A model generated the notes under the pieces. The model saw only the letters and a list, made by a program, of their open reading frames with translations. It ran no database searches and was not told where the DNA came from. Source: an uncultured Eubacteriales bacterium (GTDB taxonomy: Bacteria; Bacillota; Clostridia; Christensenellales; CAG-138). Taken from it: DNA of 62,820 bases. The position numbers were made by a program, and so were the translations under genes. The stretch covers positions 1 to 62,820 of the forward strand of contig CADAGD010000020.1 of NCBI GenBank assembly GCA_902787375.1, given 5' to 3'. Positions 6,763-35,202 of the stretch are shown in pieces (the first letter of the stretch is position 1; every line of letters starts with the position of its first letter).

Positions 6763-7092
6763 TCAACCCGCCGCATAAGCTTTCCGCCTGCTCTCCTCAT
6801 CAAGCCTCCAAAGCATGGCATGGACAAACTCCAATGGCGTCGGCGGTACTGTCGAGTACGGAAATAGGCTCCTTATGCCGCCCTCATTCATATCCCATGC
6901 GTATCGTATCGCGTATCTCATGCAACGCTCAACCTGACGCATTTCGCGTTCGTTATCCGACAGCCTTATCGCCTCGCTCACATCACAGCCGCTCGACTCG
7001 GCTTTTCTCAATGCCTTGCTCAGATAATGAAACCCCTTGTGACGCGGTGAAAGACCCATCATAAACATTTCCTTTTCCACAGATACTCCCAT
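6763..7092 (-). CDS. stand-alone Spo0A C-terminal (DNA-binding) domain protein
   Basis: A 109-residue protein that aligns by eye with the Spo0A effector domain: MMGLSPRHKGFHYLSKAL corresponds to the GVPAHIKGYxYLREAI segment, VERCMRYAIRYAW to VERAIRHAIEVAW, and PPTPLEFVHAML to KPTNSEFIAMV. There is no receiver domain, so it lacks the phosphorylation switch of real Spo0A. It may bind 0A-box-like DNA constitutively or modulate Spo0A; the role is inferred. The start at 7092 has GAGGAGG upstream. It converges on the PhzF gene with an 11-nt gap. Confidence 0.85.
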   Translation of the reverse strand: MGVSVEKEMFMMGLSPRHKGFHYLSKALRKAESSGCDVSEAIRLSDNEREMRQVERCMRYAIRYAWDMNEGGIRSLFPYSTVPPTPLEFVHAMLWRLDEESRRKAYAAG

Positions 7093-7186
7093 ATTACCCT
7101 CCTCATTCGCGTTTTGTTGCCTTGTACTTCAGACAGACGGCAATGTAATCAGCTAAAAGCTTCCATTCTTGCCTATTATTATCATA

Positions 7187-7211
7187 TCACTTAAAGTGAA
7201 AACATTCGACT
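7187..7211 (-). promoter_or_regulatory. possible operator region of the Spo0A-C gene
   Basis: A 13-bp dyad TCACTT-A-AAGTGA (7187-7199) lies next to AGTCGAA (reading leftward, 7205-7211), a 6/7 match to the TGTCGAA 0A box. It sits about 100 nt upstream of the Spo0A-C start codon. Assignment is by pattern only. Confidence 0.35.
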
Positions 7212-7337
7212 TATTTCACCCTTAAAGCAATCTCAACCACAGGTTTAATCCTGTGTCAAAACGGATGCTGTACATCCGCTCAAAAAAGCTGTATTATATT
7301 GCCGTCAGCTGAACAAACAATGAAAGAGGAGAATAAC

Positions 7338-8360
7338 ATGGAACTCAGCAACAAACTTCATGCCCTCAGAACGTCAAAGGGCATAACTCAGGAAAAGCTC
7401 GCCGAGTGCATTGGCGTAACCGCTCAAGCGGTTTCAAAATGGGAGCGCGGTATTGCCCTGCCCGACATCAGCCTTCTGCCGGAACTCTCCGTCTATTTCG
7501 GAGTCAGCATCGACGATCTTTTCGGCTTGACCGAGGAAAAGGAATACGACCGCATACAGAACATGCTCTGGGATGAGCGGCTGCTTTCTGCGGATGAGAT
7601 ATACCGCACCGAGCGTTGGGTTGATGAGAAGGTAAGGGCGGGCTACCGTCCTGCCGACTGCATAAGGCTCAAAGCGGATATGTACAACCATCTCGCCCGC
7701 GCCTACAACGATATGGCGGCGGATGCCGCGATGGAGGCTTTGACGCTCGATCCCAACTGCAAGGATGCTCACGGCGAGCTGAACGAGGGACTTCGCGGGT
7801 TCATTCCCGATTGGAACGCACGCAATCATTACAAGCTCATATCCTTCTACAAGGATTTTGTGAAGAAGAACCCGGACGACTGGCGCGCCCATATGTGGCT
7901 GCTTGACAATCTGCTTGACGATATGCGCCTTGAAGAAGCCGAGGAGGCTCTGCGCGGGCTTGAAAAATGCGACAGCACGTTCCGCACGCCCCTCTACCGC
8001 GCCAAGCTGCTCTGGGCAAGGGGAAAATGCGACGAAGCGCGAGAGGTGTTCAAGCAGATGGAAACCGACTTTGCCGATGAGTGGATGGTGTTCTTTGAAA
8101 TATCCGAGCTTTGCGTGCTTGAGGGCGATTACGCTTCCGCCATCGAGTACATGAAGAAGGCACAGGCAAAGCAGGAAAAGCCCCGCTTTGCCGATACCTA
8201 TGAGGCTCTCGCTCAGCTCTATGAGATAGTCGGCGACTATCCCCACGCTGTTGAAATGCTCGAAGGGGAACTCCGCCTGTTCAAGGAGGATTGGGGCTTT
8301 GATAAGGGTGAAACCGCCGATTATGTAAGACGCGAAATAGCAAGGTTGAAAAATATGTAA
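7338..8360 (+). CDS. XRE-family regulator with TPR-like repeats
   Basis: A 340-residue transcriptional regulator. Residues 1-62 are a Cro/C1 helix-turn-helix (LRTSKGITQEKLAECIGVTAQAVSKWERG), then a short link (FGLTEEKEYDRI). A long all-alpha region of repeated helical pairs follows (WRAHMWLLDNLLDDM, RLEEAEEALRGLEKC and similar), reading as tetratricopeptide-like repeats to the end. This architecture is common in Firmicutes as a protein- or peptide-responsive repressor. The start at 7338 follows AAAGAGGAG; an upstream in-frame ATG has no ribosome site. Target genes are unknown. Confidence 0.88.
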   Translation: MELSNKLHALRTSKGITQEKLAECIGVTAQAVSKWERGIALPDISLLPELSVYFGVSIDDLFGLTEEKEYDRIQNMLWDERLLSADEIYRTERWVDEKVRAGYRPADCIRLKADMYNHLARAYNDMAADAAMEALTLDPNCKDAHGELNEGLRGFIPDWNARNHYKLISFYKDFVKKNPDDWRAHMWLLDNLLDDMRLEEAEEALRGLEKCDSTFRTPLYRAKLLWARGKCDEAREVFKQMETDFADEWMVFFEISELCVLEGDYASAIEYMKKAQAKQEKPRFADTYEALAQLYEIVGDYPHAVEMLEGELRLFKEDWGFDKGETADYVRREIARLKNM

Positions 8361-12579: not shown

Positions 12580-12635
12580 TCACTCATTGTATTCATTGCC
12601 CACATCCGCGCCGAGGTCACAGGTGAAAAGAAACT
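12580..12635 (-). pseudogene. out-of-frame tail of the DUF4430 gene
   Basis: After the stop of the upstream DUF4430 ORF, the next reading frame encodes HIEFLFTCDLGADVGNEYNE and a UGA. This matches the last strand of DUF4430 domains; compare YTWIFTIYGWGMDYG in the neighbouring dockerin protein. The loop normally between VNGVFP and this strand is absent, so a deletion that is not a multiple of three most likely broke the gene. Confidence 0.65.
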
Positions 12636-13055
12636 CTATGTGGGGAAAACCCCGTTCACCCTGTACTCCCAACCGCTCATCGGCCCGCAATCGAACTCAT
12701 ACAGATTGTTTATGCCCTCGACATATGCCGTTCCGAACGCCGGCACAAACTCCGCCTCGATATGTATATTGCGCGCAAGCAGCTCCCTCAGCATTATATC
12801 GTAAACAGAATCCCCGTCCTCGAACCCGACCGTGACCTTGGGAAGTATTATCCCGTCTTCCGGGACAAGCTCGACTTTATCGGGGTTGAGCATATCCATG
12901 TTTTTGAGGATGCTCTTGCAATCTATGTACAGCGTGCAATGCAGGCTGTAATCGTCCCTGACCTCCGGCTTGGCGCATGAAACCATGAACGCCGCCATGA
13001 GCATCAGAATCACAAGCCGAACAATGCTTGCTGTCTTAAAACTACTTCTTCGCAT
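12636..13055 (-). CDS. DUF4430 (transcobalamin beta-domain-like) lipoprotein, truncated
   Basis: A 139-residue lipoprotein with signal peptide and lipobox MVSCAK (Cys about 27). It has a single DUF4430 domain, the fold that forms the C-terminal cobalamin-capping domain of animal transcobalamin and intrinsic factor. Diagnostic motifs are DGDSVYDIML, then NNLYEFDCGPMSGWEYRVNG. Translation stops at VFPT, but the missing final strand is present downstream in another frame. It overlaps the alpha/alpha-barrel gene by 14 nt, with GGAGAG before its ATG, so the two are translationally coupled. Ligand is not known. Confidence 0.78.
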   Translation of the reverse strand: MRRSSFKTASIVRLVILMLMAAFMVSCAKPEVRDDYSLHCTLYIDCKSILKNMDMLNPDKVELVPEDGIILPKVTVGFEDGDSVYDIMLRELLARNIHIEAEFVPAFGTAYVEGINNLYEFDCGPMSGWEYRVNGVFPT

Positions 13056-14490
13056 TTGCTCTCCTTACGATTACCGTGACCAATCCCGCTGACAGCATGA
13101 ATGCAGCCGCCGCTATTATGATGGTTTTGAGTGCGGAATCCGGCGCATGTCCGTTATTCCCGTCTTGCTCCGCCTTCTGCGAGGAAAGGACTCCATCGGT
13201 CTTTCCGGCATTTTCGTTGTTTTCGGTGCTTTCGGCTATTGCGTTGCTTTCGGTACTTGCCGCGCTTTCCGTTTCCGAAGGGGCTGTCTCCGTCAACGGC
13301 TCCGCGCTGTACGTCGGTTCCGCGCTCTCCGGCTGCTGAGTTTCATATGCCGTCGGTTCCGCGGACTTGAGAGCCTCGGTTGCCGCCGCCTTTTCCGTCG
13401 GCATTGGGGTTTCGTCGGTCTTAGGCTGCGCGGTCGGCTTCGGCGTCGCAGACGGCTTCGGCGTCGCGGTCGGCTTCGGAGTTGCGGTCGGCTTCGGCGT
13501 CGCGGTCGGCTTCGGAGTTGCGGTCGGCTTGGGCGTACTGCCTATAAAGCTGACGTCATTCATATCATACAAGTCCCTTCTGCCGTTTCTCATCCTGTCA
13601 TATGCGCAAAGGGCATATGCCGCCTGTTCGCTCGCCATTCTGTTGACCGAGCCTCCGCTCATATGTGCAAAGCCGCTCCCCATGTGGTACTCTATTAATG
13701 CCGCAAGGAGCGATTTACCGTTCTTTACAAAGCGGGAATCCCTGTCGGCGTCGATGCCGATCGTGGAAAGCGCGACAACGACCTGAGCGCAGCTTTCGCA
13801 TGTGGAATTGCCCGTGGTTGCAAAGCCTCCGTCGGGAAGCTGCATATCCGAAAGCTTTGAAACCGCCCTGCCTATCGCCTGTGACGCCTTTGAATACGGC
13901 GCGAGCGCGGTTATAACCGCCGCTGTCACATCGGGGTCAGCTTTATTTCCGAGCGACCAGCCGCCGCCATCAAGCTCTCTGGCTATGAGGAAATCCACAT
14001 ACGCATTCCTTGTACTGCCGTATCCGTATGCGGAATTGGAGCCAAGCGCAAGCAGCGCGTACGCGACGCCCGTGGTGCCCTGTCTTTTTACAAAGCTCTG
14101 CTCTGTCAGCGGCTCCAATATATTGTAACCCGCCACATTTCGCGCGTCCCTGCCAATCGAAGTCAGCGCAATGGCAAGGCGGGAGTTATCGGTCGCCTTA
14201 TTGGGGTTCATCTTTGGACTGCCAATGCTCCCGACATAAGCCTCTATGCTCTCGTAATAGGCTTTGCAGTACCCGCTCGTCGGGCTTACCCTTGACGCTC
14301 TTGCGAGTGTGAATACCGCCCATTCCCCTCCGACCGAGCCGAATGAGGGCGTTGCTTCCGCAACATAGCTCAATACGGCGGAGTATGGGCCTTGATAGTC
14401 CGTCGCGGCGTATGAGTAAAGCGGCGCCGCCGCCAATAAAACGATGGCAAGCAGCGCCGTTGTAATTCTTCTGAATGCGTTTTTTATCAT
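13042..14490 (-). CDS. surface alpha/alpha-barrel (prenyltransferase/transcobalamin-like) protein
   Basis: A 482-residue exported protein. A signal peptide ends near SYAATD (about 29). Residues 30-310 show repeated helical pairs with the glycine turns of alpha/alpha toroids (DGGGWSLGNKADPDVTAAVI, LPDGGFATTGNSTCESCAQV), as in terpene cyclase, prenyltransferase and intrinsic-factor alpha domains. A PKPTAT repeat stalk and a Glu/Ser/Thr-rich stretch follow, then a C-terminal membrane anchor (AAAAFMLSAGLVTVIV) and RRANAKK. No catalytic DxDD motif is seen, so ligand binding is more likely than catalysis. It overlaps the upstream dockerin gene by ATGA and the downstream DUF4430 gene by 14 nt. Confidence 0.82.
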   Translation of the reverse strand: MIKNAFRRITTALLAIVLLAAAPLYSYAATDYQGPYSAVLSYVAEATPSFGSVGGEWAVFTLARASRVSPTSGYCKAYYESIEAYVGSIGSPKMNPNKATDNSRLAIALTSIGRDARNVAGYNILEPLTEQSFVKRQGTTGVAYALLALGSNSAYGYGSTRNAYVDFLIARELDGGGWSLGNKADPDVTAAVITALAPYSKASQAIGRAVSKLSDMQLPDGGFATTGNSTCESCAQVVVALSTIGIDADRDSRFVKNGKSLLAALIEYHMGSGFAHMSGGSVNRMASEQAAYALCAYDRMRNGRRDLYDMNDVSFIGSTPKPTATPKPTATPKPTATPKPTATPKPSATPKPTAQPKTDETPMPTEKAAATEALKSAEPTAYETQQPESAEPTYSAEPLTETAPSETESAASTESNAIAESTENNENAGKTDGVLSSQKAEQDGNNGHAPDSALKTIIIAAAAFMLSAGLVTVIVRRANAKK

Positions 14491-15488
14491 GCTAATGTAT
14501 TGCGCAGAACGAGCAGCGCGTCGGTCATGTTAACGCTTCCGTCGCCGTTCACGTCGGCAAGCTCCATAGCCCTATCGCTCAGCTTTTCGATGCCCATGGC
14601 GGCACGCATGATGGAAAGAGCGTCGGAAATATCCAGCACGCCGTCCATATTGACGTCGCCGGACTCGTATTCGTTGGTATCCAGAACCTCAAGCAGCGCG
14701 GCAAGCGTGCTGTCTATCTCCTCCTGAGTGGCTTCGGGATCATAGAAAGCCATGATGAAATCAACTACTTCCTCATATTCGTTCTCAGTCAAAAGCTCCA
14801 TAAGCTCCTCGTCGGCGTCTATGAGAGCAATCATCCTTGAAGCCTCGGTTCTGTCAACACCCTCCATGGGGTTGTTGAACGCGGGGAAGCAGCCCCAGCC
14901 ATCGCTTATACCGTAATCCATGCCCCATCCGTATATGGTGAATATCCATGTATACACGCTGCCTATTGTGACTGTCACATCATCGGCAGTTGAGGGAATC
15001 GAAACATTATCCTCAAGCAGCATCCAGCCGGAGAGGGTGCAGTATTCAAACTCGGAGAGCATCTCGTCATCGACATATGTTCCTGTCCACTCGCCGAGAT
15101 TGTAGCCGAGGTTCTCCTCCGCCCATGCGGGATACGCCTCTATCTGCTCCATGAGATAATCGGGAACACAGGGTTCCTTCTCATAGCAGCCTATGCCGGA
15201 AAGATAATATCCGTACTCACCTGTACCCGAATTATAGCTCCAGCCGAGCATATCAAACGCCCTTGTCGTCATTTCCGCAAGCGATTCGCCCTCATGTACG
15301 GGAATGAGAACAGGGTCTATGATGTATGTCCAACCCATTGTCAGGGCGGATACGGCAAATGTTACATAGCCGTCATATCCTTCGGGAACTTCGGGATACT
15401 CAGGTGATACCGCCGCGAACGCAGGCAGGCACACACACAGCATGGCAGTCATAACAACTGCCGCAATGATACGCTTGAAAGTCTTCAT
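14487..15488 (-). CDS. secreted DUF4430-like protein with C-terminal type I dockerin
   Basis: A 333-residue exported protein (signal peptide ending near PAFAAV, about 26). Residues 40-210 look like an enlarged DUF4430 domain: a VHEGESLAEMTTRAFDMLG element, then EFEYCTLSGWMLL and VYTWIFTIYGWGMDYG. The last 60 residues are a dockerin with two calcium-binding repeats, GDVNMDGVLDISDALSIMRA and ADVNGDGSVNMTDALLVLR. It should dock onto a cohesin outside the cell. It is first in the coupled operon; the next gene starts inside its stop codon (ATGA). Confidence 0.88.
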   Translation of the reverse strand: MKTFKRIIAAVVMTAMLCVCLPAFAAVSPEYPEVPEGYDGYVTFAVSALTMGWTYIIDPVLIPVHEGESLAEMTTRAFDMLGWSYNSGTGEYGYYLSGIGCYEKEPCVPDYLMEQIEAYPAWAEENLGYNLGEWTGTYVDDEMLSEFEYCTLSGWMLLEDNVSIPSTADDVTVTIGSVYTWIFTIYGWGMDYGISDGWGCFPAFNNPMEGVDRTEASRMIALIDADEELMELLTENEYEEVVDFIMAFYDPEATQEEIDSTLAALLEVLDTNEYESGDVNMDGVLDISDALSIMRAAMGIEKLSDRAMELADVNGDGSVNMTDALLVLRNTLA

Positions 15489-15563
15489 GTTAAATAAAAC
15501 CTCCTGTTTTTATGTTTAAAATATACCACTTAACATGCGATTTGTCAACATATCCCGCCTTTT

Positions 15564-27468: not shown

Positions 27469-27521
27469 CAGATTTTATAATATATTACTGTAGTTTTAGC
27501 CCTCATGTCTTATTTTCCCTG

Positions 27522-27550
27522 TTGCAAATTCAAGCCGGTTGTGTTATATT
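27522..27550 (+). promoter_or_regulatory. promoter of the cohesin gene
   Basis: TTGCAA at 27522-27527, a 17-nt spacer and TATATT at 27545-27550, giving an untranslated leader of about 90 nt. Confidence 0.65.
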
Positions 27551-27645
27551 ATCATAGTAATTATGTACCCATGCCGGCTAAATACCGCTCAAGCGTCGTG
27601 CCGCATGGATATAAAGTTATTAATTCAGGAAGGAGTATTCCCCAA

Positions 27646-29448
27646 ATGAAGAAATTCTTCGCACTTATCATTGCTGTAGCAATGGTTCTCTCCCTTGTTG
27701 CGATCCCCGCGAGCGCATCGGAGGAGAGCGTAGTATTCACAGTAGGTTCTGTGAGTGACGTTAACCCCGGCGACGAGGTTGTAATCCCCATTTCCGTAAG
27801 CGGTCATTATGAAGCTCATACCGTTAAGATCAAGCTTTTCTTCGACCCCGAAAATGTGGAATATGTAGGCCTTGAGAAGAACACGGAGCTTAATCCCTAC
27901 TTCACCTATGAAGAGCTGTCCGCAAACGCCGATTTCCTCGGTATAGCCATCCTGGGTCTTACCGATCCCTTCTCCGTTGAGGGCGTTCTCTACAATGTAA
28001 CCTTGAAGGTTAAGGAGAGCTGCACAGAGGATCAGCCTGTTACTCTTGAGGTAGGCGACTTCTTCTATTCTCCCATCGGTCAGGGTCATACATCCATTCC
28101 CTTCTCCGTAAATCCCGATGGTATGATCAGCCTCCATGTTGATCCTACTCCTGAGCCCACTGCCGAGCCCACCGTTGAGCCCACCGAGGCTCCCGCTGAG
28201 CCTACCGAAGAGCCCACCGAGCCCACCGAAGAGCCTGCCGAGCCCACCGAAGAGCCCGCTGAGCCCACCGAAGAGCCTACTGAGCCCACCGAGGAGCCCG
28301 CTGAGCCCACCGAAGAACCCGTTGAGCCCACCGAGGAACCCGCTCCCCATGCCGTATTCACAATGGAGAGTGCTGAGAATGTTCTTCCCGGCAGCGAGAT
28401 AACCCTTGCCTTCTCGATCGAGGGCGAGTATGAGGCTTCCACCCTCTATGCACAGCTTAATTACGACGCATCCGTTCTCCAGGTCGTCGGTTTCACACAG
28501 GGCGATGTTCTTGACGCTCATGAGAATGCCATCATAGTTACCGATTATGAGACCATCCCCGGTTCCGTCCGTCTCGGCGTTATTATGCCCACCGGCACGA
28601 TGACAGAGAACGGCACACTCCTGAATGTAACATTCAAGGTATCCGAGGACTTCACAGAGCCCACCGATATAGTCATCAATATCAACGAGTTCAACTACGT
28701 TCCCGAAACAACCGAAATTCCCGTTGAGTTCGAAACCGTTGACGGTGTTGTATCCCCCTTCGTAAACGGCCCCGCCACAATAACCATGGGCAGCGCCTAT
28801 GAAGTACCCGGCGGCTCCGAGATTACCCTCCCCCTGACCGTCGAAGGCAACTACATGATCCATACACTCAACATCTTCGTTGATTACGACGTTGATGTTC
28901 TCACAATCGAGAATGTTGAGCTTGGCTCTCTGATCGCCCCCTCAAGGGACGGAAGCGATCCCGTTGTTGTTCTTGATTACGAAACCGTTCCCGGTTCCAT
29001 CCGTCTTGGCGTTATAATGCCCGATGAGGCTCTCACAGGCGAAGGCGAGCTTCTGAATGTTACATTCAAGGTAGCTGACGAGTTCAACGCTCCCACAGAC
29101 CTGCCTGTTACCGTAAACGAGTTCGGCTATATGCCCGTTGGTGCTATCAACCAGGAGCCCATTGACGTTGTTGTTGTCGATGGTATCGTAACTCCCGTTG
29201 AGGTTGTCGAGCCCACTGAGCCCGTTGTCGAGCCCACTGAGCCCGTTGTCGAGCCCACCGAGCCCGTTGTCGAGCCCACCGAGCCCGTTGTCGAGCCCAC
29301 TGAGCCTGTTGTCGAGCCCACCGTTGCTCCCACAAACGCTCCTACACCCAAGCCCCCTGTAACAGGTGCTATCAGCCTTGTAGGTCTTGGTATTGCGGCA
29401 ATAGCTGCCGGTGCCGGCATCGTTATCTTCCGCAAGAAAGAGGACTAA
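27646..29448 (+). CDS. surface scaffold with three cohesin domains
   Basis: A 600-residue exported protein. A signal peptide (to about residue 24, PASASEE) leads into three cohesin domains at about 25-160, 236-367 and 380-515. Each opens with a GSEITLPL-type strand and has a YDxxVL strand; domains two and three share GSVRLGVIMP-type strands and LLNVTFKV. A 70-residue stalk of EPTEEP repeats separates domains one and two, and an EPVVEPT stalk follows domain three. The end has PPVTG, a membrane segment and RKKED, resembling a degenerate LPxTG sorting signal. It should anchor dockerin proteins, two of which are encoded nearby. The start has GGAAGGAG upstream. Confidence 0.92.
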   Translation: MKKFFALIIAVAMVLSLVAIPASASEESVVFTVGSVSDVNPGDEVVIPISVSGHYEAHTVKIKLFFDPENVEYVGLEKNTELNPYFTYEELSANADFLGIAILGLTDPFSVEGVLYNVTLKVKESCTEDQPVTLEVGDFFYSPIGQGHTSIPFSVNPDGMISLHVDPTPEPTAEPTVEPTEAPAEPTEEPTEPTEEPAEPTEEPAEPTEEPTEPTEEPAEPTEEPVEPTEEPAPHAVFTMESAENVLPGSEITLAFSIEGEYEASTLYAQLNYDASVLQVVGFTQGDVLDAHENAIIVTDYETIPGSVRLGVIMPTGTMTENGTLLNVTFKVSEDFTEPTDIVININEFNYVPETTEIPVEFETVDGVVSPFVNGPATITMGSAYEVPGGSEITLPLTVEGNYMIHTLNIFVDYDVDVLTIENVELGSLIAPSRDGSDPVVVLDYETVPGSIRLGVIMPDEALTGEGELLNVTFKVADEFNAPTDLPVTVNEFGYMPVGAINQEPIDVVVVDGIVTPVEVVEPTEPVVEPTEPVVEPTEPVVEPTEPVVEPTEPVVEPTVAPTNAPTPKPPVTGAISLVGLGIAAIAAGAGIVIFRKKED

Positions 29449-33399: not shown

Positions 33400-35202
33400 A
33401 TGAAACGATTTTTAGCTCTGTTGCTTGCCGCGCTGTTTTTTACGCTGCCTTTATCCGCTTTGGGAGAGGGGAACGCAGAGGCCGAATCCGGCGATATGAA
33501 GTCATCGGTTTATCGGCTTGAACCGCGGTATTCCGACGGCGTGGAGCTTCGGGAGAACTATGAAGGCTCCATGGAGATAATGGCACATGAAGATGGGGAT
33601 TATCTCGTCTTTGACGAAAGCAAGAGCCTTGTTGTAGAGGTTGTCCTATCGGACGGATGGTCGCTCTGTACGAGGTATTCAAGCTTCTTTACGGGGGACA
33701 GCCGCGCATATCTTTTGAACCCGGAATCAGGCGTGTACGAATACTTTTTCGATGCCGAAGCAGGCGGACGTGTCAAACTGTCCGTCTGGAATAGTGTGGC
33801 TATAAACGCCTCCTGCTCGGAGCTTCCCAAGCTCTATATAAACGCCGAGGCTTCGTTTGATGAAATCGGCAAGACGGAGTGGGTTGACGCAAGCTTTTCC
33901 CTCACTCTCGGCACCAAGGAATTCAAGAGCGGCGAATACGAGGGCAGCGGCGAGGTAAAGGGCAGGGGCAATACCTCATGGGGATATCCCAAGAAGCCCT
34001 ATTCCATCAAGCTTGACAGCAAGGCGTCCCTGCTCGACATCCCCAAGACAAAGAAATATGCCATCATACCGAGCTACACAGACGGTACTTTGATAAGGAA
34101 TTTTATCACATACAAGGTCTTTCAGGGGCTTGAGGGGATAGGCTATGTTCCCAAATGCGAACTGGTGGATGTTTATTTGAATGGCGAGTACAACGGCATT
34201 TACATACTTGTTGAGCGCATCGCCATCGAAAAGAGCAAGATAGATATTGACGAGGCTGATGCGGACAATCTTACCGGCGGCTATCTTATCGAGAAGGACG
34301 TAACCGGAAAGGTCGATTTCAACAGCGATCTGTGGTTCGATTGTCCCTACTGGGCGAATCAGACGCAGGATTATTTCGTCATGAAAGGCCCCGAACCCAA
34401 CGATCCGCAGCTTGTAAACGCCATGCTCGACTACCTTACAGGCTTCATGCAGAACGTCCACGACTGCATAATAGGCGAGAACGGCGAGGACTACACTCGA
34501 TATGTGGATGTCAGCTCATGGGTGGATTTCATAATCGTGCAGGAGATTTCCAAGAACATCGACGGCAATTTCAAAACGAGCTGTTACATGTATAAGGAAA
34601 AGGACGACGACCATCTCTATATGACCGCGCCATGGGATTTCGACTTCGCCTACGGAAGGGTATCCTGGAACAATCAAAGCGCGGAGCATAACGATGTGGA
34701 CGATTGCCCGGATGCCAATACGCCCGAAGGCTTTATGTGCGTGAACAGCTCTAATCCGTGGATGGATAAGCTCTATGATACCAAGCCGGAGTTCCGTCGT
34801 GCTCTGATGGAACGCTATACACAATACCGTCACACGCTCATTGACGAGCTTTTTGCCATGATCGAGGAGCAGGCGGCATACCTGAGCATTGTGCAGGAGC
34901 CCAATTATCAGCTCTGGAACAAGCCTTTCAATGTTGCCGTAACCAATCTCAAAAACTGGCTGACGAACAGAATCGCGTGGCTTGACGAGCAATGGCTTAT
35001 TGAGGAACCCTCCTATCAGCTTGGCGACGTCAATATGGACGGAATAATTGATTCCAATGACGCTCTCCTCCTGCTGCGCTTCTCGCTCGGACTTGCTGAC
35101 CTCGGCGATGGTATGGAGCTTGCCGACGTCAATGATGACGGCGAGGTTTCACTCGACGACGCGCTTATCGTGCTGCGTATCGCGCTGGGAATGAAGGATT
35201 GA
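33400..35202 (+). CDS. secreted CotH-kinase-family protein with C-terminal dockerin
   Basis: A 600-residue exported protein (signal peptide ending near PLSALGEG, about 22). Residues 25-155 form a beta-rich N-terminal region. Residues 160-520 are a CotH kinase domain (GRGNTSWGYPKKPYSIKLD, LVDVYLNGEYNGIYILVERI, TAPWDFDFAYG). The CotH family phosphorylates coat proteins in Bacillus and is also common on gut-bacterial surface proteins. The last 60 residues are a type I dockerin with calcium loops DVNMDGIIDSNDALLLLR and DVNDDGEVSLDDALIVLR. It should bind the cohesin scaffold at 27.6-29.4 kb. It has a strong promoter of its own. Confidence 0.93.
   Translation: MKRFLALLLAALFFTLPLSALGEGNAEAESGDMKSSVYRLEPRYSDGVELRENYEGSMEIMAHEDGDYLVFDESKSLVVEVVLSDGWSLCTRYSSFFTGDSRAYLLNPESGVYEYFFDAEAGGRVKLSVWNSVAINASCSELPKLYINAEASFDEIGKTEWVDASFSLTLGTKEFKSGEYEGSGEVKGRGNTSWGYPKKPYSIKLDSKASLLDIPKTKKYAIIPSYTDGTLIRNFITYKVFQGLEGIGYVPKCELVDVYLNGEYNGIYILVERIAIEKSKIDIDEADADNLTGGYLIEKDVTGKVDFNSDLWFDCPYWANQTQDYFVMKGPEPNDPQLVNAMLDYLTGFMQNVHDCIIGENGEDYTRYVDVSSWVDFIIVQEISKNIDGNFKTSCYMYKEKDDDHLYMTAPWDFDFAYGRVSWNNQSAEHNDVDDCPDANTPEGFMCVNSSNPWMDKLYDTKPEFRRALMERYTQYRHTLIDELFAMIEEQAAYLSIVQEPNYQLWNKPFNVAVTNLKNWLTNRIAWLDEQWLIEEPSYQLGDVNMDGIIDSNDALLLLRFSLGLADLGDGMELADVNDDGEVSLDDALIVLRIALGMKD

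Follow-up and report, generated by a model that had tools for sequence, protein, structure and literature searches.

A putative split transcobalamin-like operon for corrinoid capture, with a dockerin and a lost riboswitch, in an uncultured Eubacteriales bacterium

The window considered here is the whole 62,820-nucleotide stretch of contig CADAGD010000020.1, in which reading of the open reading frames identified three overlapping genes on one strand, designated A, B, and C (Table 1). Four bases (ATGA, 14487-14490) are shared by genes A and B, and 14 by genes B and C. The signal peptides of A and B, the lipobox of C, and the C-terminal membrane helix of B were assigned by visual inspection and do not come from a prediction tool. 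We observed the A-B-C order in 8/10 congener loci, a recurrence that argues against a chance arrangement; the contigs of the other two loci (L036 and L040) stop inside B. Across 103 genomes of the family, A and B occur together in 25, A without B in one, and B without A in one. No transporter genes were found beside A, B, and C in the window. The first-pass annotation had described the locus as a translationally coupled operon that places two folds, joined in animal transcobalamin, on separate secreted proteins. The separation of the folds stands, as A, B, and C are distinct genes in the window, and the coupled operon is borne out by the frames, their overlaps, and the conserved order, but only in part, since C is broken by a frameshift.

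Table 1. Coordinates of the features discussed
Feature	Position	Strand	Details
Gene A, with a signal peptide (by eye), a DUF4430-like domain of the transcobalamin C-terminal/SLBB type, and a type I dockerin at the C-terminus	14487..15488	-	333 aa
DUF4430-like domain of A, residues 40-193	14910..15371	-	BLAST to A-type domain of L055 fusion; profile match to C-type DUF4430
Type I dockerin of A, residues 277-329	14502..14660	-	PF00404, E 2.4e-11 and 3.7e-12 in two scans
Gene B, with a signal peptide (by eye), an alpha/alpha toroid, a stalk rich in Thr and Pro, and a membrane helix (by eye) at the C-terminus	13042..14490	-	482 aa
Alpha/alpha toroid domain of B	13552..14394	-	Profile match, E 1.2e-130 (the profile includes the window copy); AlphaFold2 model
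Gene C: lipobox (by eye), DUF4430 domain shortened by frameshift	12636..13055	-	139 aa; PF14478, 30 bits; DNA alignment with six congeners
Out-of-frame remnant, end of the DUF4430 domain of C	12580..12635	-	Sequence; DNA alignment with congeners
75-base gap between upstream gene and A, without riboswitch; congeners have one here (aptamer match 169-206 bases)	15489..15563	-	Rfam; congener comparison
Promoter of sigma-A type (TTGACA, 17 nt, TATATT), immediately preceding the ribosome-binding site of A	15520..15548	-	11/12 consensus matches
Protein with three cohesin domains, candidate docking partner of A (pairing inferred)	27505..29448	+	PF00963, E 2.6e-25, three stretches; matches within 27733-29094

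The N-terminal domain of the window copy of A gave no match in the Pfam search, and its assignment as DUF4430-like comes from its relatives and from profile comparison. In a nine-sequence set, BLAST aligned it with the A-type domain of the L055 fusion protein (E 4e-20). A DUF4430 match at E values up to 0.1 was obtained for 17 of 24 aligned members of the domain (best, 1.2e-9), and at the stricter threshold of 0.01, applied to whole A proteins, for 8/18 (best, 8.4e-4), while the profiles of A and C were aligned by hhalign with a probability of 98.8 (E 1.1e-16). Profile searches of the PDB with A and with C returned no meaningful match, and the AlphaFold2 model of A, built from a two-sequence input, was poor (pLDDT, 49.4) and was set aside as evidence for the fold. 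A dockerin was present on all 18 A proteins scanned, out of 22 A loci. Together with the PF00404 match in the window copy, these profile relationships uphold the description of A as a DUF4430-like protein with a dockerin.

For B, the AlphaFold2 model of the toroid reached a mean pLDDT of 86.8 and a pTM of 0.89, the barrel profile matched squalene-hopene cyclase (E 8e-18), and Foldseek returned toroid proteins, human transcobalamin included. The membrane-anchored alpha/alpha barrel of the first-pass annotation, which had named the lack of a toroid as telling against its proposal, is upheld here as to its fold, with the anchor read by eye. Terpene cyclases top the structural matches and transcobalamin stands at rank 14 (E 4e-3); because its TM-scores are similar to those of prenyltransferases and complement domains, the fold of B by itself does not name the ligand. 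At the sequence level, the profiles of A, B, and C gave no match to transcobalamin or intrinsic factor, and no relative of the barrel was found in the viral contigs searched.

Gene C matches DUF4430 (PF14478) above the cut-off, over profile positions 1-52 of 72 only. In a DNA alignment, the window copy lacks 40 bases that are present in the C genes of six congeners, the frames of which run on through the rest of the domain; the remaining two congener loci with a contig reaching C (L034 and L035) likewise continue through it. The window frame ends at 12636, and 12580, where the first-pass annotation began the locus, is the stop codon of the other frame, so that the earlier reading of C had passed through a frameshift. 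A DUF4430 lipoprotein is therefore supported by the PF14478 match and the lipobox, but not as an intact protein. The 40-base gap may be a real mutation or an assembly error.

A further difference between the window operon and its relatives lies upstream of A. A cobalamin riboswitch precedes the operon on the same strand in 10/10 congener loci and likewise at all 11 loci with an A-B operon in the related genera g13 and g16, i.e., at 21/21 of the relatives' loci in three genera. In the window operon, on the other hand, no Rfam match was found at the gathering score and no riboswitch at E values up to 5; the RF00174 aptamer was not found. The promoter directly before the ribosome-binding site of A has an identical counterpart in the congeners, where it sits just upstream of the riboswitch. 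As an explanation for the absent riboswitch, relocation of the operon was rejected, since the congeners' operons are flanked by the same upstream genes. Nor are all barrel relatives under riboswitch control: in other families, a cobalamin riboswitch was found within about 4.5 kb upstream at only 11 of 29 barrel loci (about 1.5 kb for L113, and less than the full distance at some others, such as L124, where the contig starts), and some barrel relatives therefore need not be B12 proteins.

Nine of the 11 operons in g13 and g16 continue into homologues of the EcfT, EcfA, and EcfS proteins of the window genome; of the other two, L042 ends with its contig and, in the stretch examined, L052 shows EcfT alone. 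In Paenibacillus silvestris (L032), a riboswitch, a toroid protein with SLH domains, a DUF4430 protein, a CbiQ-like EcfT, and EcfA-S are found together. The ECF genes of the window genome are open and lie on contig C5, away from A-B-C, and no riboswitch was found at six ECF loci of its genus. Among solved structures, the S component is best matched by 6fnp chain A, with E values of 5.3e-13 (L043) and 2.6e-4 (window genome); this chain belongs to the cobalamin transporter ECF-CbrT (6FNP, as described in PMC5997447). Pfam places the L043 S component nearest to its model of the ECF riboflavin S component (E 1.1e-11), so that the case for B12 as the substrate depends on the riboswitches and the 6fnp match. 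A strong match to the S component (E <= 1e-30) was found in 26/26 genomes of the family with B and in 2/77 without it, and the two congeners that lack B also lack the S component. Within the part of the B12 synthesis pathway surveyed, CbiF, CbiD, CobB/CbiA, and CobT of the window genome scored over the cut-off and CobS below it. The riboswitches, the ECF linkage, and the co-occurrence with a CbrT-like S component all support the corrinoid ligand predicted in the first-pass annotation. Its suggestion that the gene pair be sought near B12 transport genes or cobalamin riboswitches holds for the relatives' loci but not for the window copy, which has neither beside it.

Two further observations bear on how A and B may be assembled. 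In L053, L054, and L055, A-type and barrel domains are fused in one chain, in both orders. The window genome yielded 11 cohesin matches, three of them within the window, and 33 dockerin matches, and cohesins were found in 13/13 genomes of the genus, so that a cohesin partner for A is possible on sequence grounds. The A protein of genome G032 has a dockerin, yet no cohesin match was found in that genome.

Taken together, we read the operon, with a probability of roughly three in four, as a split transcobalamin-like module for corrinoid capture at the cell surface, which in this genome has lost its riboswitch and carries a frameshifted C. The ligand would be held between the cavity of the membrane-anchored toroid of B and a beta lid formed by the DUF4430-like domain of A. 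By way of its dockerin, A would fasten the lid, and with it the complex, to surface proteins that bear cohesins. Lipoprotein C would be a second beta domain near the membrane and would probably assist in delivering the ligand to an ECF transporter that uses a CbrT-like S component; the genes of this transporter belong to the operon itself in a related genus and sit on a separate contig in the window genome. In the relatives, plentiful B12 would be expected to switch the operon off through the riboswitch; with the riboswitch gone and the promoter and ribosome-binding site kept, B12-independent, constitutive expression is predicted in the window genome. The more specific picture of a B12 clamp with exchangeable subunits, its lid held on a scaffold by cohesin-dockerin contacts and its toroid on a membrane stalk, which has escaped B12 control by a clean loss of the riboswitch, is put forward tentatively, at somewhat less than an even chance.

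The state of the window copy can be read differently, i.e., as a decaying remnant that has lost its role in corrinoid uptake even though the copies of its relatives still serve. Such decay is suggested by the broken C and the absent riboswitch, as all 10 congener loci retain the riboswitch and all eight congeners with a contig reaching C keep its frame. However, A and B are open and overlapping, with the promoter and ribosome-binding site in place, and neither is more diverged than the congeners are from each other (for A, the mean identity of the window copy is 0.614, within a range of 0.58 to 0.65 over 10 sequences; for B, 0.644, within 0.60 to 0.68 over 11). The ECF genes, at another place in this genome, also have open frames, and we consider decay unlikely. 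Similarly improbable, in our estimation, is that the dockerin of A has nothing to do with a scaffold and has another binding target or is no more than a stabilizing calcium-binding tail. The genome of G032, with a dockerin on A and no cohesin match, would fit this explanation, and the SLH domains that take the place of the dockerin in L032 indicate that anchoring can be achieved by other means; the presence of the dockerin on every A protein scanned and the numerous cohesin and dockerin matches in the window genome argue against it.

With regard to the ligand, the module might capture not B12 itself but a precursor or analogue of corrinoid type (cobinamide, for example) or some other small molecule. 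CbrT is reported to transport cobinamide too (PMC5997447), 18 of the 29 barrel loci from other families have no riboswitch nearby, and salvage of a precursor would fit a genome with B12-pathway enzymes. The cobalamin-class riboswitches at all of the relatives' A-B operon loci make a non-corrinoid ligand unlikely but are still compatible with an analogue, and overall we regard a ligand other than B12 as the less probable case, with odds well below even. By far the least probable reading makes B a secreted enzyme akin to terpene cyclases or prenyltransferases, with A and C as unrelated accessory proteins. Cyclases are indeed the best sequence and structure matches of B, and terpene-type cyclases have a DXDD motif; the corresponding position in B reads DPDV. 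This, the export and membrane anchor (both by eye), the riboswitch and ECF linkage in relatives, and the fusion to A-type domains led us to reject it.

The surface-capture reading has precedents. In 2007, Burroughs et al. predicted that bacterial proteins combining SLBB (transcobalamin C-terminal, DUF4430) domains with alpha/alpha toroids are B12 scavengers (PMC1796856). These share the two secreted folds with the window operon; with the relatives of the operon, they also share transporter genes resembling CbiO/CbiQ and a further SLBB protein. In the window, however, (i) the toroid is on one protein and the beta domain on another, the common one-polypeptide form being found in the relatives L053, L054, and L055; (ii) the beta protein bears a dockerin, a word absent from the main text of PMC1796856; (iii) the locus lacks the CbiO/CbiQ-type transporter operon that is general, though not strict, in the systems described; and (iv) the genome has some B12 synthesis enzymes, the key ones being usually, though not strictly, missing from the hosts described in that paper. 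Since toroid proteins with a transcobalamin C-terminal domain had already been proposed as B12 scavengers, the new elements here are confined to the division into separate proteins, the presence of a dockerin, and a regulation that seems to have escaped the riboswitch. In titles and abstracts of the open-licence literature (subscription journals and preprints being outside its scope), no B12 binder of this build, whether split or bearing a dockerin, was found. The S component of the linked transporter is a homologue of CbrT, which is described without an extracellular capture module in the account of ECF-CbrT (PMC5997447), whereas the relatives have a toroid/DUF4430 module ahead of the transporter genes.

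In comparison to animal transcobalamin, intrinsic factor, and haptocorrin, the same toroid and DUF4430-type beta domain would be expected around a corrinoid, and the B model resembles transcobalamin; the window proteins differ in having no significant sequence match to these carriers, two chains instead of one, a membrane stalk, and a dockerin, and in that binding is predicted only. Cohesin-dockerin contacts build cellulosomes. The type I dockerin of A and the cohesins of the genome recall this assembly, except that A carries a predicted vitamin-binding domain and not an enzyme. The fold of BtuG is not known to be related to those of the window proteins. In Bacteroides thetaiotaomicron, cobalamin-binding lipoproteins on the surface, BtuG among them, likewise place corrinoid capture ahead of a transporter, in a Gram-negative outer-membrane system, and one of four such operons is reported to have no riboswitch either (PMC12751083).

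To conclude, surface capture of corrinoids ahead of an ECF transporter appears to be little studied in Gram-positive bacteria, and the operon, if our reading is true, would represent a counterpart to the surface B12 binders of Bacteroides. The two-domain plan of the human B12 carriers would then exist in bacteria as separate subunits, which is relevant to the 2007 proposal that animals gained this plan from bacteria (PMC1796856), and cohesin-dockerin assembly would extend from polysaccharide enzymes to vitamin capture. The riboswitch-less operon offers a natural test case for the loss of B12 control.

The three overlapping same-strand frames described in the first-pass annotation, A, B and C, are present as claimed, with overlaps of 4 bases between A and B and 14 bases between B and C in the window sequence. 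Searched alone, the window sequence of B matched Pfam weakly (E 0.08) and the PDB at 2.6e-6, and the B family profile matched squalene-hopene cyclase (E 8e-18). An AlphaFold2 model of B, built from the window sequence and two relatives, was mostly helix (mean pLDDT 86.8, pTM 0.89); its top Foldseek match was drimenyl diphosphate synthase (E 3.6e-4), human transcobalamin ranked 14th, 16th and 20th (E from 4e-3 to 7e-3; TM-scores by query 0.57, 0.51 and 0.60), and prenyltransferases and complement domains scored about as transcobalamin does. Since the matches include all of these, B is a toroid, or barrel, for which transcobalamin is one among several lookalikes. The window copy of A did not match DUF4430 in Pfam. 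With a cut-off of E 0.1, 17 of the 24 sequences in the A-domain alignment did (best 1.2e-9); with a cut-off of 0.01, so did 8 of 18 full-length A proteins (best 8.4e-4). Aligning the A profile to the C profile gave E 1.1e-16, and in a BLAST among nine sequences the A-type domain of a fused relative, L055, hit window A at 4e-20 and window C at 8e-6. The structure model of A was poor.

Features of the window
Feature	Positions	Strand	Description
Gene A	14487-15488	minus	DUF4430-like domain, C-terminal type I dockerin
Gene B	13042-14490	minus	toroid, then Thr/Pro-rich stalk and membrane helix (stalk and helix by eye)
Gene C	12636-13055	minus	lipobox (by eye), incomplete DUF4430
Promoter of operon	15548-15520	minus	11/12 consensus matches; ribosome-binding site directly after
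Gap between upstream gene and A	15489-15563		75 bases; riboswitch missing, present in congeners
Three-cohesin protein	27505-29448		same window as A; cohesin matches
CotH-kinase protein	33400-35202		same window; carries a dockerin

The DUF4430 lipoprotein C, taken as intact in that annotation, is frameshifted. It is the sole DUF4430 match at E ≤ 0.001 genome-wide, A being too diverged for such a search, and the match ends at profile position 52 of 72. In a DNA alignment with six C genes from congeners (genomes of the same genus), 40 bases are absent from window C, shifting the frame, and all six read through the rest of the domain. Past the stop of window C, 17 of 17 relatives go on in the protein alignment, as do the C proteins of L034 and L035, which lie outside it; position 12580, where the operon had been taken to end, is a stop codon in the other frame of C. 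The gene is broken in the 84-contig assembly of the window genome, through either a mutation or an assembly error.

Of the 103 genomes of the family, 26 have the barrel (11 of the 13 in the genus, the window's own counted), 26 have A and 25 have both. Only G034 has A without B, as a weak match (E 6.7e-4) covering the region that A and C have in common; only G036 has B without A. The order A-B-C is kept in 8/10 congener loci, and in the other two (L036, L040) the contig stops inside B. Two operons of the related genus g13, L044 and L045, carry an extra protein of 247 and 256 aa, respectively, between B and C (6776-7519 and 6767-7537), secreted and membrane-anchored by eye. The same two domains are fused in both orders in relatives, with an A-type domain, barrel and then dockerin (by motif) on a single chain in L053 and L054, and barrel, A-type domain and dockerin motif in L055, which argues that A and B would act together; a C-type protein remains separate beside the fusions in L053 and L055.

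The suggestion that the ligand is a corrinoid has gained evidence from the cobalamin riboswitches of relatives, from linkage to ECF transporter genes and from a CbrT-like S component (EcfS, here S). All 10 congener loci (L031, L033-L041) and all 11 A-B operon loci of the related genera g13 and g16 (L042-L052) are preceded, on the same strand, by a cobalamin riboswitch (RF00174). Eight other loci were scanned: five (L032, L053, L054, L055 and L057) have one, separated in L055 from the barrel downstream by about 4.8 kb that includes other genes, and none was found in L056, L058 or L059. In a class-wide sample, the barrel was matched in 124 of 391 genomes; 29 loci were returned besides the window, and scanning the upstream DNA over at most about 4.5 kb (shorter where the contig ended, 1.5 kb for L113) found cobalamin riboswitches at 11 of them (6/20 plus 5/9), all upstream on the same strand. 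Because only these 11 have one, some barrel relatives need not be corrinoid binders. In L057 and L058 the barrel gene adjoins a large A-type (DUF4430-like) protein together with MoxR-like ATPase and transglutaminase-like frames (by reading), perhaps a different use of both domains.

Nine of the 11 g13/g16 operons continue into homologues of the window genome's EcfT (41-44% identity), double EcfA and EcfS; of the other two, L042 stops at a contig end and L052 has EcfT only in the stretch retrieved. In Paenibacillus silvestris (L032, 7336-13786) the riboswitch is followed in turn by a barrel with SLH domains, DUF4430, CbiQ-like EcfT and fused EcfA-S. Pfam CbiQ is matched by the EcfT of the window genome (E 1.9e-6) and of L032 (7.7e-9), and no Pfam model by that of L043. 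Among solved structures S is closest to 6fnp chain A (for L043 at E 5.3e-13, for the window genome at 2.6e-4), the entry for ECF-CbrT, for which transport of both cobalamin and cobinamide has been demonstrated (PMC5997447). Since S comes closest in Pfam to the model for the ECF riboflavin S component (for L043 at 1.1e-11), B12 as its putative substrate rests on the 6fnp match and the riboswitches. The window genome carries its ECF genes on contig C5, away from A-B-C, and in congeners, too, S and B are on different contigs; no riboswitch was found at six ECF loci of the genus (L142-L147 scanned, L148 left out). S was detected at E ≤ 1e-30 in 26/26 genomes with B versus 2/77 without (Fisher 2e-22), and at E ≤ 1e-3 in 26/26 versus 14/77 (1e-14), statistics that overstate independence because the 1e-30 cut was picked after viewing the list, the genomes are related and most g13 genomes have both in one operon. 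Within the genus, the two genomes without B are the two without S; S and B are inherited together.

No cobalamin riboswitch was found upstream of A in the window, and three are present elsewhere in the genome. That the operon has moved is ruled out by its upstream genes, since the same ones flank the congener operons (a 220-aa gene in 8/10 loci, a clostripain-like gene in 9/10). Of the eight congeners that have the 220-aa gene, seven gave a TTGACA-17-TATATT promoter at the riboswitch start by script, and L039 shows the promoter too when its sequence is read. The window keeps this promoter, with the ribosome-binding site immediately behind it. Most simply, a local deletion would have removed the riboswitch and spared the promoter and ribosome-binding site, so that expression is predicted to be no longer B12-responsive. 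Decay, possible with C broken, is not evident in A and B, since their divergence is no greater than in congeners.

Judged by gene content, the organism is probably not a plain B12 auxotroph, since contig C11 (L063) encodes CbiF, CbiD, CobB/CbiA and CobT over NCBIfam cut-offs; CobS-like and BtuC-like proteins there fall below them, and two of the genome's three cobalamin riboswitches, divergent from each other, lie on this contig. Salvage of corrinoids or precursors is still sensible for it.

The C-terminus of window A is a type I dockerin (E 2.4e-11), and dockerins were found in 18/18 A proteins scanned (L044, L047, L048 and L049 being outside the scan). At E ≤ 0.001 the window genome gave 33 matches to dockerin and 11 to cohesin, and dockerins in it are also on non-carbohydrate proteins. 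Cohesin matches occur in 13/13 genomes of the genus; the 95% complete genome G032 (L052) has none, though its A carries a dockerin. A is predicted to dock on a candidate cohesin scaffold.

Burroughs and others (2007), in the work that defined the SLBB superfamily, described bacterial proteins in which an alpha/alpha toroid is joined, before or after, to a transcobalamin-type SLBB domain, and whose operons also contain CbiO/CbiQ and another SLBB protein; B12 scavenging was put forward for them (PMC1796856). Compared with the systems described there, the window operon has a similar predicted way of working; it differs in having two chains instead of one, a dockerin on the beta chain and, here, neither a riboswitch nor a linked transporter. 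The first-pass observation of a split transcobalamin-like operon holds apart from the broken C, and its interpretation as a capture system for a corrinoid or other small ligand largely stands, now with evidence for a corrinoid. Its most striking parts, that the module is a split B12 clamp docked on a scaffold and that it has escaped control by the riboswitch, are predictions; the window operon would represent a natural loss of B12 control in which promoter and ribosome-binding site are retained.
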